Shown: positions 15,646 through 42,680 of the stretch, one piece after another
Layout of the letters: every line of letters starts with the position of its first letter
Numbering within the stretch: the first letter of the stretch is position 1
Source: Candidatus Avacidaminococcus intestinavium
GTDB lineage: Bacteria; Bacillota; Negativicutes; Acidaminococcales; Acidaminococcaceae
Reading direction: 5' to 3'
NCBI GenBank assembly: GCA_018714505.1
Contig: DVNI01000085.1
Span: 1-42,680, forward strand
DNA length: 42,680 nucleotides
The notes under the pieces: model-generated
Databases searched by the model: none
The model's input: only the letters and a program-made list of their open reading frames with translations
What the model was told of the DNA's origin: nothing
Program-made: the position numbers and the translations under genes

Positions 15646-15716
15646 TAAGACAAGGGGACGGTCCTTTTTCGTCTGATTTTTAAAATCAGACGAAAAAGGA
15701 CCGTCCCCTTGTCTTA
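15646..15716. repeat. Perfect 35-bp inverted pair of REP-like elements; bidirectional terminator
   Basis: Left arm 15646-15680 and right arm 15682-15716 are exact reverse complements around a single T. Each arm is one copy of a dispersed REP-like element (TAAGACAAGGGGACGG ... TCTGATTTT). It sits between convergent genes; the last three bases (15714-15716) are the TAA stop codon of dapL. Confidence 0.95.
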
Positions 15717-31949: not shown

Positions 31950-31984
31950 AAAATAAGACAGGGACCGTCCCCCTGTCTTATTTT
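31950..31984. terminator. Palindromic REP-like terminator between convergent genes
   Basis: AAAATAAGACAGGG (31950-31963) pairs perfectly with CCCTGTCTTATTTT (31971-31984) around ACCGTCC. It contains the REP-like core GGGACCGTCCCCC. It begins two bases after the Nramp stop and overlaps the stop codon of the AtoE-like gene (31983-31985). Confidence 0.9.
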
Positions 31985-35120: not shown

Positions 35121-35150
35121 AATCAGACAAAAAAGGACCGTCCCCCTGTC
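35121..35150. repeat. REP-like element at the 3' end of the hutX-like gene
   Basis: Copy of the dispersed element (TCAGACAAAAAAGGACCG then TCCCCCTGTC). Read on the minus strand, its TGACAGGGGG end supplies the TGA stop codon (35149-35151) of the hutX-like gene. Confidence 0.85.
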
Positions 35151-35851: not shown

Positions 35852-35971
35852 AAACAAAGCTACCGTCATACTGATTATCTCATCAATATGGCGGTAGCTT
35901 CTATTTTTCAACGTATTAACTTCATAATCTAACCAAAATCAGACAAAAAAGGACCGTCCCCCTGTCTACCT
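35852..35971. repeat. Left direct repeat of the islet (terminator hairpin plus REP-like element)
   Basis: Matches 39204-39324 with four differences (three substitutions and one T insertion) over ~120 bases. Contains a hairpin (AAGCTACCGTCATA with TATGGCGGTAGCTT, one wobble) followed by the REP-like element (35935-35967). Homology ends abruptly where the jetD remnant begins. Confidence 0.95.
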
Positions 35972-37449: not shown

Positions 37450-38775
37450 ATGTTTAATAATAAAATCAAATTTTTGTTAGCTATTTTATTTAGTGTTTTT
37501 GTTTTTTATCCAAATATTTCGTCTGCTCAACTAAGTTCTGAAATCTACTCATTTAAAAGGACAAATGGAGATATTATTTATACTACATTGTCTGTTGCAT
37601 CGAATAAAGGGCATCGTGGTGCTGCCTTTGATAAAGTTTATGAAAATGGAAAAAATGAGCCTGCATATTATATGTATTTTAAAGCAGATACAAGAATATT
37701 TAGGAATAAAAAAGAAGTTGTAGTAGAGTTTTCAGTTAATGGCGAAGTCGTTGATTTGCAACCATATATGATAAAAAAAGTTTTTGATAATACTGGAAGT
37801 CTCGAACATGTTTATAAATTACCAAAAGAACTTGTTGATGTGACGCTACCGGATGTTCAAGTTAATATTAAATATATAGCTGACGGAGAAGTGCTTAAAG
37901 AATTACCGGTTGATAATAGACATCTTATCCCGTGGCAAAAAGTAAAAGAATTAACTAAAGAGAACTATTTGCGTGAAGGCTTGTTTGTTAATTCTATAAA
38001 AGAGGCATCTAAGCGTGAAGGAGCCTTATATATGTATTTTCCGGAAACTTCATATGACAAAGTTTTGAAAGCAGTTATTTATAATTTTAAGAAGAAAAAA
38101 CCAAGAGCAAAGCGATATGGACATTGGTTAATGTGGGCAGAGAACAAAGATGTTAATATTAATCAAAACATTTTGTTTGAAGGATTTGATGTAGACGCTT
38201 ATAAATACTTTTCTGCTGTTCCCCATAAAAACGGCTCTTTATTTAGAGTATTTGACAGAAGAGGAAAAAATAATTTATTATTGAATCTCTGGGAAGAAGT
38301 GTTCTTTGATATCTGTGAAGAGTTCGGTGATACTGCTAATTATGGAATCGAATTCAAAATAGATAAAGGTAGTGGCGATAACGAGGGCAATGTATTTAAT
38401 ATTATCAGTATTGATAAGAACATGAAAGAACAATATCTTGGTATTAAAGTTGACGATCAAATAATCAGTATAAATGATCTAGATATTGAACCTATGAGAA
38501 CGGAAGAAATAAAATTAATGTTGATGCAAGCGGTAGACGGAGCGAAGATTAAGTTTAAAGGTGATGGCGGTAAGTTAAAAGAAATTTTTGTTCGACCTAT
38601 TATAAAAAAAGGCAATCCTAATGGTGAAATAGATTATGATGCATATTTTGCAGATTCGAAAAATCCAATAAAGTTAAAAGTGAAAAAAAGATTTGAGTAT
38701 CCAAAAACATGGTTTTCAGCATACACGTTTTCGAAAGATGAAATAGAGGGTATAAATCTTCTTTTAACCCAATAA
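37450..38775 (+). CDS. Secreted protein of unknown function with a PDZ-like domain
   Basis: 441 aa. Clear signal peptide (MFNNKIKFLLAILFSVFVFYP... to SSAQ). The N-terminal ~150 residues are beta-rich. A PDZ-like domain covers about residues 318-382 (YLGIKVDDQIISINDLDIEPM...LMLMQAVDGAKIKFKG). No protease triad or other catalytic motif was found. Strong ribosome site (GGGAGG) eight bases upstream. Codon use is more AT-rich than the minus-strand neighbours, in line with the mosaic islet. It may act in the periplasm or at the cell surface. Family not recognised. Confidence 0.8.
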   Translation: MFNNKIKFLLAILFSVFVFYPNISSAQLSSEIYSFKRTNGDIIYTTLSVASNKGHRGAAFDKVYENGKNEPAYYMYFKADTRIFRNKKEVVVEFSVNGEVVDLQPYMIKKVFDNTGSLEHVYKLPKELVDVTLPDVQVNIKYIADGEVLKELPVDNRHLIPWQKVKELTKENYLREGLFVNSIKEASKREGALYMYFPETSYDKVLKAVIYNFKKKKPRAKRYGHWLMWAENKDVNINQNILFEGFDVDAYKYFSAVPHKNGSLFRVFDRRGKNNLLLNLWEEVFFDICEEFGDTANYGIEFKIDKGSGDNEGNVFNIISIDKNMKEQYLGIKVDDQIISINDLDIEPMRTEEIKLMLMQAVDGAKIKFKGDGGKLKEIFVRPIIKKGNPNGEIDYDAYFADSKNPIKLKVKKRFEYPKTWFSAYTFSKDEIEGINLLLTQ

Positions 38776-38951: not shown

Positions 38952-39188
38952 TTAGATCATTTCCAAACGCAAAAATTTGCTATTCGAACAAATATTAGCT
39001 ATTTTATCTAATGTTAATCTTAAATACAAAGGAACTAAAATATTTAAAGCGGATGCCAATTTGGCTATCCGCTTTAAATTTACCGCTAACACTGTTAATT
39101 TTGCTTGAATACGCATACTTCGTAAACCGTAACCTTTGGTTCGGTTTAATCCGTGAAATCTTTTTAATTCAGCATTTTTGGACGGTCC
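38952..39188 (-). pseudogene. Transposase C-terminal remnant (IS1182/IS5-like DDE family)
   Basis: 78 codons open on the minus strand to TAA at 38952-38954. The segment NAELKRFHGLNRTKGYGLRSM, then RIQAKLTVLAVNLKRIAKL, matches the C-terminal end of DDE transposases of the IS1182 type (HGL.R....GL....IQA.LT..AVNLKRI). A TGA (39189-39191) stands upstream and the rest of the transposase is absent. No terminal inverted repeats were recognised. Confidence 0.75.
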
Positions 39189-39203
39189 TCAATTGTCACA
39201 ATA

Positions 39204-39324
39204 AAACAAAGCTACCGTCATACTGATTATTTCATCAATATGACGGTAGCTTCTATTTTTTCAACGTATTAACTTCATAATTTAACCAAAATCAGACAAA
39301 AAAGGACCGTCCCCCTGTCTACCT
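39204..39324. repeat. Right direct repeat of the islet (terminator hairpin plus REP-like element)
   Basis: Partner of 35852-35971. The hairpin AAGCTACCGTCATA / TATGACGGTAGCTT is perfect here (14 bp), with T-runs on both sides, and serves as terminator of the epimerase gene. The REP-like element (39288-39320) contributes the epimerase TAG stop codon at 39319-39321. Confidence 0.95.
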
Positions 39325-40314
39325 TGCTTTAAACCACTCAGCAAATTTACTTAAACCTTCTTGGATTGATGTATTTGGTTTAAAGTCAAAGTCACGCATA
39401 AGTTCGCTAACATCGGCATAAGTTCTATAAACATCGCCTGGTTGCATTGGTAAAAATTCTTTTTTTGCCTTTTTTCCTAAAACCTCTTCTAAGGTAGAGA
39501 TGAAATCCATTAGTTTTTCTGGTTGATTATTGCCGATATTATAAACCTTATGCCTAACACCATCACTATCAGCAATTGGCGGATTATCCAAAATGTTTTC
39601 TAAGCCTTGTACTACGTCATCAACATAAGTGAAATCACGATACATATCACCATTATTAAAAATTTTAATCGGTTCATCTCGCATAATCTTTTCAGCAAAT
39701 GAAAAATATGCCATATCCGGTCTACCATATGGACCATACACAGTAAAAAACCTTAGACCAGTAGCTGGAACTTGATACAAATGGCTATAAGTATAAGCCA
39801 TTAATTCATTGGCTTTCTTGGTCGCAGCATAAAGGCTCACTGGTTTATCTGTTTGATCCGTAGTTGCAAAAGGGATTTTGGTATTAGCACCATACACCGA
39901 GCTAGAAGATGCATATACTAAATGCTCTACACCAAAATTACGACAAGTTTCTAAAATATTTAAAAACCCTGCTAAATTAGAATGTAAATATGCTTTAGGA
40001 TTAGTAATACTGTAGCGTACTCCAGCTTGCGCCGCTAAATTCACTACGATTGCAAATTTGTGCTGTTCAAAAAGAGTCGTTAACGTTCCTTCATCGGCTA
40101 TATCTGCCTTAACAAAAGTAAATTTAGATGCTTTACGCAAGATGGACAAACGTTCCTCTTTTAATTTAACATCATAATAATCATTAAGATTATCAATTCC
40201 CACAACTGCTACCCCTAATGCTAATAAACGTTGCGTCAGATGAAATCCAATAAAACCCGCAGCTCCAGTCACTAGAATCTTCTTAGCAACATCAAGCGTT
40301 CTAAACTTACTCAT
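39319..40314 (-). CDS. UDP-glucuronate 4-epimerase (NAD-dependent SDR)
   Basis: 331-aa extended SDR: NAD-binding GAAGFIGFHL at ~18-27, the family segment DNLNDYYDVKLKEERL, catalytic SSSSVYG and Tyr-x-x-x-Lys in SLYAATKKANE, and C-terminal MQPGDVYRTYADVSEL. These features mark UDP-glucuronate 4-epimerases (CapI/LspL), which make UDP-galacturonate for capsule or LPS. UDP-glucose dehydrogenase, which supplies its substrate, is encoded upstream on the same strand, separated by a two-gene insertion. The stop codon lies inside the REP-like element. Confidence 0.9.
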   Translation of the reverse strand: MSKFRTLDVAKKILVTGAAGFIGFHLTQRLLALGVAVVGIDNLNDYYDVKLKEERLSILRKASKFTFVKADIADEGTLTTLFEQHKFAIVVNLAAQAGVRYSITNPKAYLHSNLAGFLNILETCRNFGVEHLVYASSSSVYGANTKIPFATTDQTDKPVSLYAATKKANELMAYTYSHLYQVPATGLRFFTVYGPYGRPDMAYFSFAEKIMRDEPIKIFNNGDMYRDFTYVDDVVQGLENILDNPPIADSDGVRHKVYNIGNNQPEKLMDFISTLEEVLGKKAKKEFLPMQPGDVYRTYADVSELMRDFDFKPNTSIQEGLSKFAEWFKAR

Positions 40315-40429
40315 TACGCCTACTTCCTTTCAAGTAACCTAATCGTTTAATATTCTTGTCAGATAAAATAATGCCTCTATCCAAAACAAAAACGCAGTAG
40401 GAATAAACTAGTTATTCCATACCACGCTT

Positions 40430-41197
40430 TTAATTTAAATGTCTAGCCATAAAGTCATCAGCATTCTTTTTGAAATCTTTTAAGTCATAAAACTGTTTGT
40501 CAGCGGCGCTCATAAGCAGTTTTCTTTGTGTTTTGGGTAATTCATCAACATTCTCATTAACCACAACAGCCCAAAAAGGTAATCCTTCCTTTTGAAATGA
40601 TAGTATTGATATAACTGCTGATTGCGCTTTTGCAATCCCTTTTACCGCAAATAAATAAATAGGTTTATCTCTAGTTACAAACACATAATCAACAACCAGT
40701 TCTTCTCTATCCGCAATAGGCCTTTGATCGACCTGCGGATTGTACTTTTTTAAGTTTGTAACTATATACTCCTGTACTTGATCATAAAAAAGATTTGTTA
40801 TATTTGATCTTTGCAAAATCTTCATATTGCAGACTTTAGCAATAACCTGTGACATCTTCATTATTGTCGGAAAAAGAAACTCTACTGTAGTTTCCATATA
40901 AATATTACCATCAGCAAAAAAAGCTTCATTTTCTCTAAGTAAATTAGCTAAAATACTTTTCTTGTTTTCGGTATCAAGATCATAGGTATACGAAAGGCGC
41001 ATTAATGACATGCCAGAATCACAGACCTTTATTACATCGTCACTTTCACTTATTTTCAAGAAAATATCAAGCATATCACCATCAGGATGGTATAGTGGAG
41101 AGAATAGTTGAAAAAAATTTTTCTTCCTTTCAACTAATTTAAATCTTGAATAAAAATTATCGGCGATAATACTTTCTAGTTTTTCCTTATTCAACAT
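40430..41197 (-). CDS. DUF1828/DUF1829 domain protein
   Basis: 255 aa. The N-terminal half (residues ~30-120: LFSPLYHPDGDMLDIFLKISESDDVIKVCDSGMSLMRLSYT) matches DUF1828; the C-terminal half (VDYVFVTRDKPIYLFAVKG...) matches DUF1829, which has a nuclease-like look with Asp and Lys in beta strands. No function is established; relatives occur in mobile and defence-rich regions. Coupled by 48 bases to an upstream 150-aa unknown gene. Both interrupt the sugar-nucleotide operon. AT-rich. Confidence 0.72.
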   Translation of the reverse strand: MLNKEKLESIIADNFYSRFKLVERKKNFFQLFSPLYHPDGDMLDIFLKISESDDVIKVCDSGMSLMRLSYTYDLDTENKKSILANLLRENEAFFADGNIYMETTVEFLFPTIMKMSQVIAKVCNMKILQRSNITNLFYDQVQEYIVTNLKKYNPQVDQRPIADREELVVDYVFVTRDKPIYLFAVKGIAKAQSAVISILSFQKEGLPFWAVVVNENVDELPKTQRKLLMSAADKQFYDLKDFKKNADDFMARHLN

Positions 41198-41245
41198 GAT
41201 TTACTCCCCCTTCCTAATCTTATTATATTATAAATGCCACATATT

Positions 41246-41698
41246 TTAAAATAAAGATTGCATTTGCTGTTTAATAAATGGAAAATATTTTTCCGCATCT
41301 TGAATATTACAAATTCGGCAAAAGTATACTATAGCATCATCCATGGTAACATATTCTTGTGTACATTCTATTTGTGACTCAGACATTCTCTCTTCATCCA
41401 AATAATGAATATGCGGGGTAAAATGTGGGTTATCTAAATTATAACAACCACCGTGCGGACCATTACATCTGAACAAAATAACTTTTTTACCCTCTTCATC
41501 TTCAACAAGTAAACCAACCGAAAAGTTATCAGGAAACTCTTTATTTTGCCTAATAAACATACTAAATCGTTTAGTACCATCCGTTGAAAGCAATTGCAAA
41601 TCTTTACGCAAACTTCCAGACACTGCCTTAAATTCTTTTTGTGGAGGCTTGATAACTATTTTAGGGCAATTAATTAAATCGAACAACTCCTTATTCAT
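41246..41698 (-). CDS. Hypothetical protein (DUF6978-like)
   Basis: 150 aa, soluble, no signal peptide. Notable are RCNGPHGGCYNLDNPHFTPHIHYLDEERM, rich in Cys and His, and a late pair CRIC. It resembles a small family found beside DUF1828 proteins (I recall it as DUF6978, which needs checking). It probably acts together with the DUF1828 protein. Ribosome site AAGGAGGG lies upstream of ATG at 41698. Confidence 0.6.
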   Translation of the reverse strand: MNKELFDLINCPKIVIKPPQKEFKAVSGSLRKDLQLLSTDGTKRFSMFIRQNKEFPDNFSVGLLVEDEEGKKVILFRCNGPHGGCYNLDNPHFTPHIHYLDEERMSESQIECTQEYVTMDDAIVYFCRICNIQDAEKYFPFIKQQMQSLF

Positions 41699-41744
41699 CC
41701 AATAATTCCCTCCTTAGTAACCACCTAATCGTTGTCTAGCCTTA

Positions 41745-42680
41745 TTATCTCCCGATTGAATAATACTCAACGCCAGCTTCTTGCATCTCGCTAACAGCAT
41801 GAATATTACGTCCATCATAAACAAGAGCTGGTTTCATTAGTGCTTTATAAGTCGCAGGTGGAACTGCTTTAATCTCTTTCCACTCAGTAAAAATAAAACA
41901 AACACTAGAATCTTTTAGTGCCTTTTCTGGAGTATCAACATAGGTAATCGAACCATTTAAATTCTTACCTTCTGGATAGAATCTTTGGTAGTTTTTAATA
42001 CCAACTGGATCATAAGCATAGATTTCTGCGCCTTGCTCTAGCAATAGCTTAATATTATCTAAAGACGGTGCTTCTCTAAGATCATCCGTACCCGGTTTAA
42101 AAGTTAGTCCTAAAACAGCTACCTTAAGATTCTGAAACGTAATTAAGCGATCAGCTGCTTTACGAAAAAGCACTGTTTTTTGCGCTTCATTAACAGCAAC
42201 CCCCGCCTCAACCGTCCTTAATCTATAACCAACTTTATTAGCTAAGAATTTCAAAGCTTTCGTGTCTTTTGGGAAACAAGAACCACCATAGCCAACACCA
42301 GCATTTAAGAAATTCGCTCCAATCCTCGCATCATAGCTCATACCTTTCGCTACATCTTGAACATCTGCCCCCACCAATTCACACAAATTCGCAATATCAT
42401 TCATATAACTAATTTTGAGCGCCAAAAAATCATTAGAAGCATATTTAATCATTTCTGCAGAACGGCGACTAACCGAAACAATCGGTAAATTAAACGGCTC
42501 ATAAATAGCTAATAACTTAGCTTCTGCTTCTTTACTCTCTGTACCAATAATAATCCGTGCTGCGTGTAAAGTATCATGCACAGCCGTACCTTGCGCCAAA
42601 AATTCCGGATTAGATGCGACTTCAACCTTCACGTCACGCACCAAAAAGTCTTGGATAAACTGTTCAACCTTATCATTAGT
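41745..42680 (-). CDS. UDP-glucose 6-dehydrogenase, N-terminus cut by the window edge
   Basis: NAD-dependent enzyme oxidising UDP-glucose to UDP-glucuronate. The frame runs past the right edge (TNDKVEQFIQDFLVRDVKVEVASNPEFLAQGTAVHD); GTG at 42644 is an internal Val, not the start. Catalytic Cys is in GVGYGGSCFPKDTKAL; also SRRSAEMIKYASNDFLALKISY, LGLTFKPGTDDLREAPS and VYDGRNIH. About 311 of the usual ~430-450 residues are present. It feeds the UDP-glucuronate 4-epimerase downstream. Confidence 0.93.
   Translation of the reverse strand, partial: TNDKVEQFIQDFLVRDVKVEVASNPEFLAQGTAVHDTLHAARIIIGTESKEAEAKLLAIYEPFNLPIVSVSRRSAEMIKYASNDFLALKISYMNDIANLCELVGADVQDVAKGMSYDARIGANFLNAGVGYGGSCFPKDTKALKFLANKVGYRLRTVEAGVAVNEAQKTVLFRKAADRLITFQNLKVAVLGLTFKPGTDDLREAPSLDNIKLLLEQGAEIYAYDPVGIKNYQRFYPEGKNLNGSITYVDTPEKALKDSSVCFIFTEWKEIKAVPPATYKALMKPALVYDGRNIHAVSEMQEAGVEYYSIGR

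Follow-up and report, generated by a model that had tools for sequence, protein, structure and literature searches.

In the window, that is, the whole stretch of 42,680 nucleotides analysed here (contig DVNI01000085.1 of Candidatus Avacidaminococcus intestinavium), four genes follow one another on the minus strand in the order UDP-glucose dehydrogenase, gene 1, gene 2 and sugar epimerase, with tight spacing (Table 1). A preliminary description of this DNA had proposed that the two middle genes form a cassette splitting a sugar-nucleotide operon, and both open reading frames are indeed present on the minus strand where it had placed them. The GC content of the two cassette genes is 0.32, compared with 0.36-0.38 in the flanking genes, while GC3 is similar.

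Table 1. Features of the dehydrogenase-epimerase region, in window positions
Feature	Position	Strand	Evidence or remark
UDP-glucose dehydrogenase (flank)	41745-42680	minus	PF00984/PF03720/PF03721; cut by window end
Leader word AACGATTAGGT, copy 1, dehydrogenase / gene 1 gap	41723-41733	minus	
Gene 1, DUF6978-type, 150 aa, putative TumE-like toxin	41246-41698	minus	ORF, Pfam and phrog
Gene 2, DUF1828 protein, 255 aa, putative antitoxin/sensor	40430-41197	minus	PF08861, PDC-M24B, phrog_5059
Leader word AACGATTAGGT, copy 2, gene 2 / epimerase gap	40337-40347	minus	
NAD-dependent sugar epimerase (flank)	39319-40314	minus	PF01370 1e-59

The word reported on both sides of the pair is real. The window contains CCTAATCGTT at two positions only (40338-40347 and 41724-41733), against 0.06 copies expected, and the true length of the shared leader word is 11 nt (minus-strand AACGATTAGGT), followed downstream by GGTTACTAAGGAGG at one copy and TACTTGAAAGGAAG at the other. 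A common word of at least that length arose in 8 of 5000 composition shuffles of both leaders. The possibility that AACGATTAGGT is a dispersed genomic repeat was rejected, as the rest of the 1.63-Mb assembly holds only chance-level matches. A different element does recur in the window: the intergenic palindrome GGACCGTCC, followed by CCCTGTC, is dispersed over 15646-15716, 31950-31984, 35135-35150, 35951-35966 and 39180-39312, with seven exact sites and one variant (15 matches counting strands versus 0.24 expected). The site at 15646-15716 is a perfect 35-bp inverted repeat, and a longer form of the palindrome has 20 matches in the assembly versus 0 for a reversed control. A 28-nt inverted repeat with a 6-nt loop, possibly a terminator, lies 3' of the epimerase (39200-39261), and positions 37450-38775 encode a secreted-looking protein of 441 aa with a PDZ-like stretch (EQYLGIKVDDQIISINDLDIEPM), judged by eye.

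The pair is an insertion between the dehydrogenase and the epimerase, because these two genes adjoin in two relatives of the same family. Empty sites, with a gap of 20-25 bp, were found in the genomes G042 and G020. A close dehydrogenase is present in three family members (71-82% identity, 82% in G042); in the remaining one, G021, the next gene is an unrelated one of 552 aa. Gene 2 occurs in 2 of the 59 family genomes, namely the window genome and Phascolarctobacterium G035. In the latter, the pair is flanked by a 274-aa gene on one side and, on the other, by a gene for an SLFN/AlbA-type domain protein. Could the pair nevertheless be a normal accessory part of a sugar-nucleotide or capsule operon? 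The shared strand and tight spacing in the window agree with this, as does the G035 copy, which has glycosyltransferase genes next to it and an epimerase about 20 kb away; but the pair is missing from 57 of the 59 family genomes, no gene separates the dehydrogenase from the epimerase in G042 and G020, and other copies of the pair occur within prophages and next to restriction genes. On the empty sites and the distribution, we rejected operon membership as very improbable. The cassette proposal is thus backed both by empty sites and by copies in unrelated contexts, and the survey across genomes contradicts the notion that the pair always belongs to the sugar operon. It is plausible that the leader was duplicated when the cassette entered, and the claim goes no further because the leaders of the empty-site relatives differ from those of the window; the genomes searched included no other member of the genus of the window's species. 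Two further observations concern these relatives. Past the pair's island in G035 comes a short fragment that by eye resembles dTDP-4-dehydrorhamnose reductase (L048, 12924-13295), giving the impression of a sugar locus interrupted by an insertion, and in G042 (contig C161, locus L043) the epimerase gene is present in two copies 6.8 kb apart.

Gene 1 matches the DUF6978 profile (PF22398) at E = 0.002, which fails the cut-off, while its relatives pass; it also matches an unnamed phage family, phrog_27326, at 1e-17. By Pfam, gene 1 is a divergent DUF6978 protein. Gene 2 matches DUF1828 (PF08861) at 4e-12 and another unnamed phage family, phrog_5059, at 1e-22. The preliminary description had called it a DUF1828/1829 gene, of which the DUF1828 part stands and the DUF1829 part does not, as Pfam gave no DUF1829 match. 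Its relationship to canonical DUF1828-DUF1829 proteins is nevertheless close at the profile level (hhalign 99%). A DUF6978 gene lies upstream of the DUF1828-DUF1829 protein in 6 of 8 cases examined (e.g., L189-L192 and L194), in the same order and coupling as in the window, and these upstream proteins are homologous to the gene 1 family (hhalign 98%). They differ from the window pair in that their C-terminal domain is recognisable as DUF1829 and their gene 1 has a longer 'NPDG...HxH' form.

The pair was also described earlier as an undescribed unit. This holds in part: it is already a candidate system in PADLOC, PDC-M24, and our literature search found neither a paper naming PDC-M24 nor a function for DUF6978 or DUF1828. 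PDC systems are unpublished candidates (PMC11811056). Gene 2 matches PDC-M24B (PDLC04539) at 2.3e-11, relatives of the pair match both PDC-M24A and PDC-M24B, and the window pair has the two-gene composition and layout of PDC-M24 (A upstream of B, adjacent, on one strand). Homologues of gene 1 that are 27-38% identical to the window protein match PDC-M24A at 1e-8 to 1e-6, whereas the window protein itself gives no match even at E = 10. PADLOC would probably miss the window locus, because its gene 1 is too divergent for PDC-M24A. We consider, with moderate confidence, that the pair is a mobile, toxin-antitoxin-like anti-phage module of two genes belonging to the PDC-M24 candidate; the missing PDC-M24A match counts against this reading.

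The coupling of the two genes is strong. Among 398 genomes of the phylum, gene 1 has four matches, the window's own included, and gene 2 is adjacent in all four. In a wider survey, a profile scan of GTDB contigs for gene 2 gave 79 loci, to which viral contigs were added. Of the 109 scorable DUF1828 loci, i.e., those not cut by a contig end, 101 have a DUF6978-type gene immediately upstream; the 109 loci include near-identical prophage copies and some fetched twice by two viral scans, and are places rather than independent cases. The commonest junction is a 4-bp overlap. In a set thinned for redundancy, the mirror-tree correlation between the two genes was r = 0.81 (permutation maximum 0.17). 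Far from rarely co-occurring, the two genes co-evolve, are near-inseparable and move independently of the sugar operon. The pair is found under 15 labelled phyla, and the gene 2 tree needs 20 label changes for them (the minimum possible is 14), so that the labels are not clade-like; the window and G035 copies group with a copy from Aminicenantes, not with other Bacillota. Horizontal transfer across phyla is likely from this tree, with the caveat that bins can be contaminated. The DUF6978-DUF1828 pair had already been listed as a defence candidate; its distribution is new here.

Many copies are carried by temperate phages. For example, in Pseudomonas phages 5371 and 5399 the pair comes just after cI, and a cI-like repressor lies within 900 bp upstream in 25 of 38 phage or prophage copies, a count in which near-identical copies and double-fetched loci are included. 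Among 83 immediate neighbours on genome contigs, we found type I restriction subunits (five HsdS and two HsdM-type methylases), one OLD/Gabija-like ATPase, two phage integrases and two SLFN/AlbA proteins; the contigs are metagenome-rich and the restriction-gene background is crude. In G347, the pair adjoins a DNA methyltransferase and another gene, by eye a restriction-modification pair. HsdS looks strongly enriched beside the pair, given its rarity across whole genomes: 59 of them, a background taken from another taxon, contain about 110 HsdS domains, at roughly two per gene. It is important to note that most of the 83 neighbours are ordinary genes and that the window site itself is no defence island, both of which count against a defence reading.

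What gene 1 might do is suggested by its conserved residues. Only R77, H96 and H98 are shared by all 69 of the diverse family members compared, and R50 (kept in 67 of the 69), K13, N79 and G80 are near-invariant. Such conservation is the pattern of a putative small hydrolase or RNase site. The AlphaFold model (pLDDT 92.5) comprises a helix, about 7-8 strands and C-terminal helices. No match was found among solved structures in the PDB, which counts against the toxin-antitoxin reading, and for the pair as a whole neither sequence nor fold gave a credible solved-structure relative. A viral fold match, A0A8S5NGZ0 (TM 0.58), belongs to a siphovirus protein that has yet to be characterised.

The TumE toxin offers a comparison. 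TumE is an experimentally validated toxin that blocks translation (PMC10584680), and TumE-TumA (DUF6516, PF20126) is likewise a two-gene unit. Gene 1 does not match the TumE profile PF20126, and the direct comparison of the gene 1 family with TumE by hhalign gave 2.4%, which is chance level (1 of 150 shuffles was as good). A direct profile match was therefore set aside as not significant; only the bridge is. The bridging DUF6978 proteins, found beside DUF1828-DUF1829 proteins, score 33.1 against TumE in hhalign, compared with a maximum of 20.2 in 150 column-shuffled controls. One of them, in L194, matches DUF6978 at 1.9e-12 and TumE at 0.0041, the latter below its cut-off. An unannotated homologue (38%) of this protein (L194, 543-977) is present on an archaeal plasmid, that of Haloarcula taiwanensis (CP019157.1, 28539-28922). 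Viral contigs yielded no relatives of TumE. Through the bridging members, DUF6978 would be a distant relative of TumE, a link that is new here. Going by the gene 1 model and the published account of TumE, both would be small alpha+beta proteins with a multi-stranded sheet and two main helices; both carry R..N..H and HxH motifs (RWDNAPHH...HHKH in TumE), and TumE, as gene 1, is without a PDB match. TumE has been described as an antiparallel sheet of seven strands that carries two helices, and the gene 1 model seems in line with this description. The differences are that direct family-level similarity is not significant, that the partner here is DUF1828 rather than a RelB-like or other TumA, and that the putative toxin gene lies upstream, whereas TumE genes lie mostly downstream of their partner. 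The last of these counts against the toxin-antitoxin reading.

The gene 2 model (pLDDT 93.4, pTM 0.66) has an N-terminal alpha/beta domain that weakly matches the chaperone ExsC. In a rival reading, the pair acts in defence or superinfection exclusion without being a toxin-antitoxin unit: gene 2, with its nuclease-like fold, would act on phage DNA, and gene 1 would be an accessory or sensor. The C-terminal part has the order alpha-beta-beta-beta-alpha-beta, with weak Foldseek matches among which PD-(D/E)xK nucleases such as SfsA, Can2, AF1548, PspGI and EndoMS are frequent, and the prophage cI-operon position fits exclusion. However, no Foldseek match of the model passes 0.001, the Glu position of the E-x-K motif on the third core strand is G/A/T/P in 74 of 74 proteins, the Lys is kept in 33 of 74, and the strongest catalytic-looking conservation sits in gene 1. 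We regard this rival as rather unlikely, and an active PD-(D/E)xK nuclease was rejected on the motif, with no Glu in any of the 74. For what the model suggests is a dead nuclease fold, a binding or sensing role fits better than an effector role, because the catalytic Glu is missing.

HipAD provides a further parallel. HipAD / DS-6 (PDC-M66) is a validated two-gene defence system of a HipA kinase and a DUF3037-DUF1829 antitoxin. In HipAD, deleting the DUF3037 partner is toxic and the kinase is needed for defence (PMC12548924), and DS-6B, related to HipAD, carries DUF3037 plus DUF1829 (PMC13092281). The DUF1829 of this antitoxin is the domain paired with DUF1828 in the relatives of gene 2. HipAD differs from the window pair in having a kinase rather than a TumE-like protein as toxin, and in that window gene 2 has no DUF1829 match of its own. 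By analogy, gene 2 would be the antitoxin or sensor, as the DUF1829-type protein is in HipAD.

A toxin (gene 1) with an antitoxin/sensor (gene 2), acting by abortive infection, would be the most economical reading because of the TumE bridge, the dead gene 2 fold and the HipAD/DS-6B parallel. We infer toxicity of gene 1, RNase activity, neutralisation by gene 2 and an infection trigger. In short, gene 1 would be a small enzyme-like protein, remotely related to TumE, that shuts down translation, probably through an RNase-type active site made up of its conserved Arg/His residues; the gene 2 product would bind and restrain the gene 1 protein and probably sense infection or DNA; and on infection the restraint would be lost, so that cell growth stops or the cell dies before phage release. 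The preliminary suggestion of a defence or toxin-antitoxin unit is, in this sense, supported by context and remote homology. Alternatively, the pair could be a type II toxin-antitoxin acting as a selfish addiction module, which would stabilise prophages and islands without having been selected for defence. A TumE-like toxin and a compact, overlapping pair, frequent in prophages and scattered in distribution, would suit such a module, but its neighbours include restriction systems, and the window's two proteins had no tblastn match in the plasmid collection, where addiction modules are expected; we consider it quite unlikely. The anti-phage module may be extended into a bolder and more tentative proposal, possible though below even odds: DUF6978-DUF1828 could be a branch of the TumE toxin superfamily that spans phyla, is carried by prophages and has an antitoxin class of its own, in which a chaperone-like domain is joined to a dead nuclease fold serving to sense phage DNA.

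The locus is real, mobile and coherent, a divergent PDC-M24 member with a newly argued TumE-like mechanism. The window provides the insertion site together with its empty-site relatives, and an unnamed candidate that spans about 15 phyla and recurs in many Pseudomonas prophages now poses a concrete and cheap toxin/antitoxin question. If DUF6978 proves to be a TumE-like toxin with DUF1828 as its antitoxin, a function could be assigned to two DUF families. TumE would also gain a defence-associated branch, and under the bolder proposal TumE-like translation toxins would join the anti-phage abortive-infection systems.
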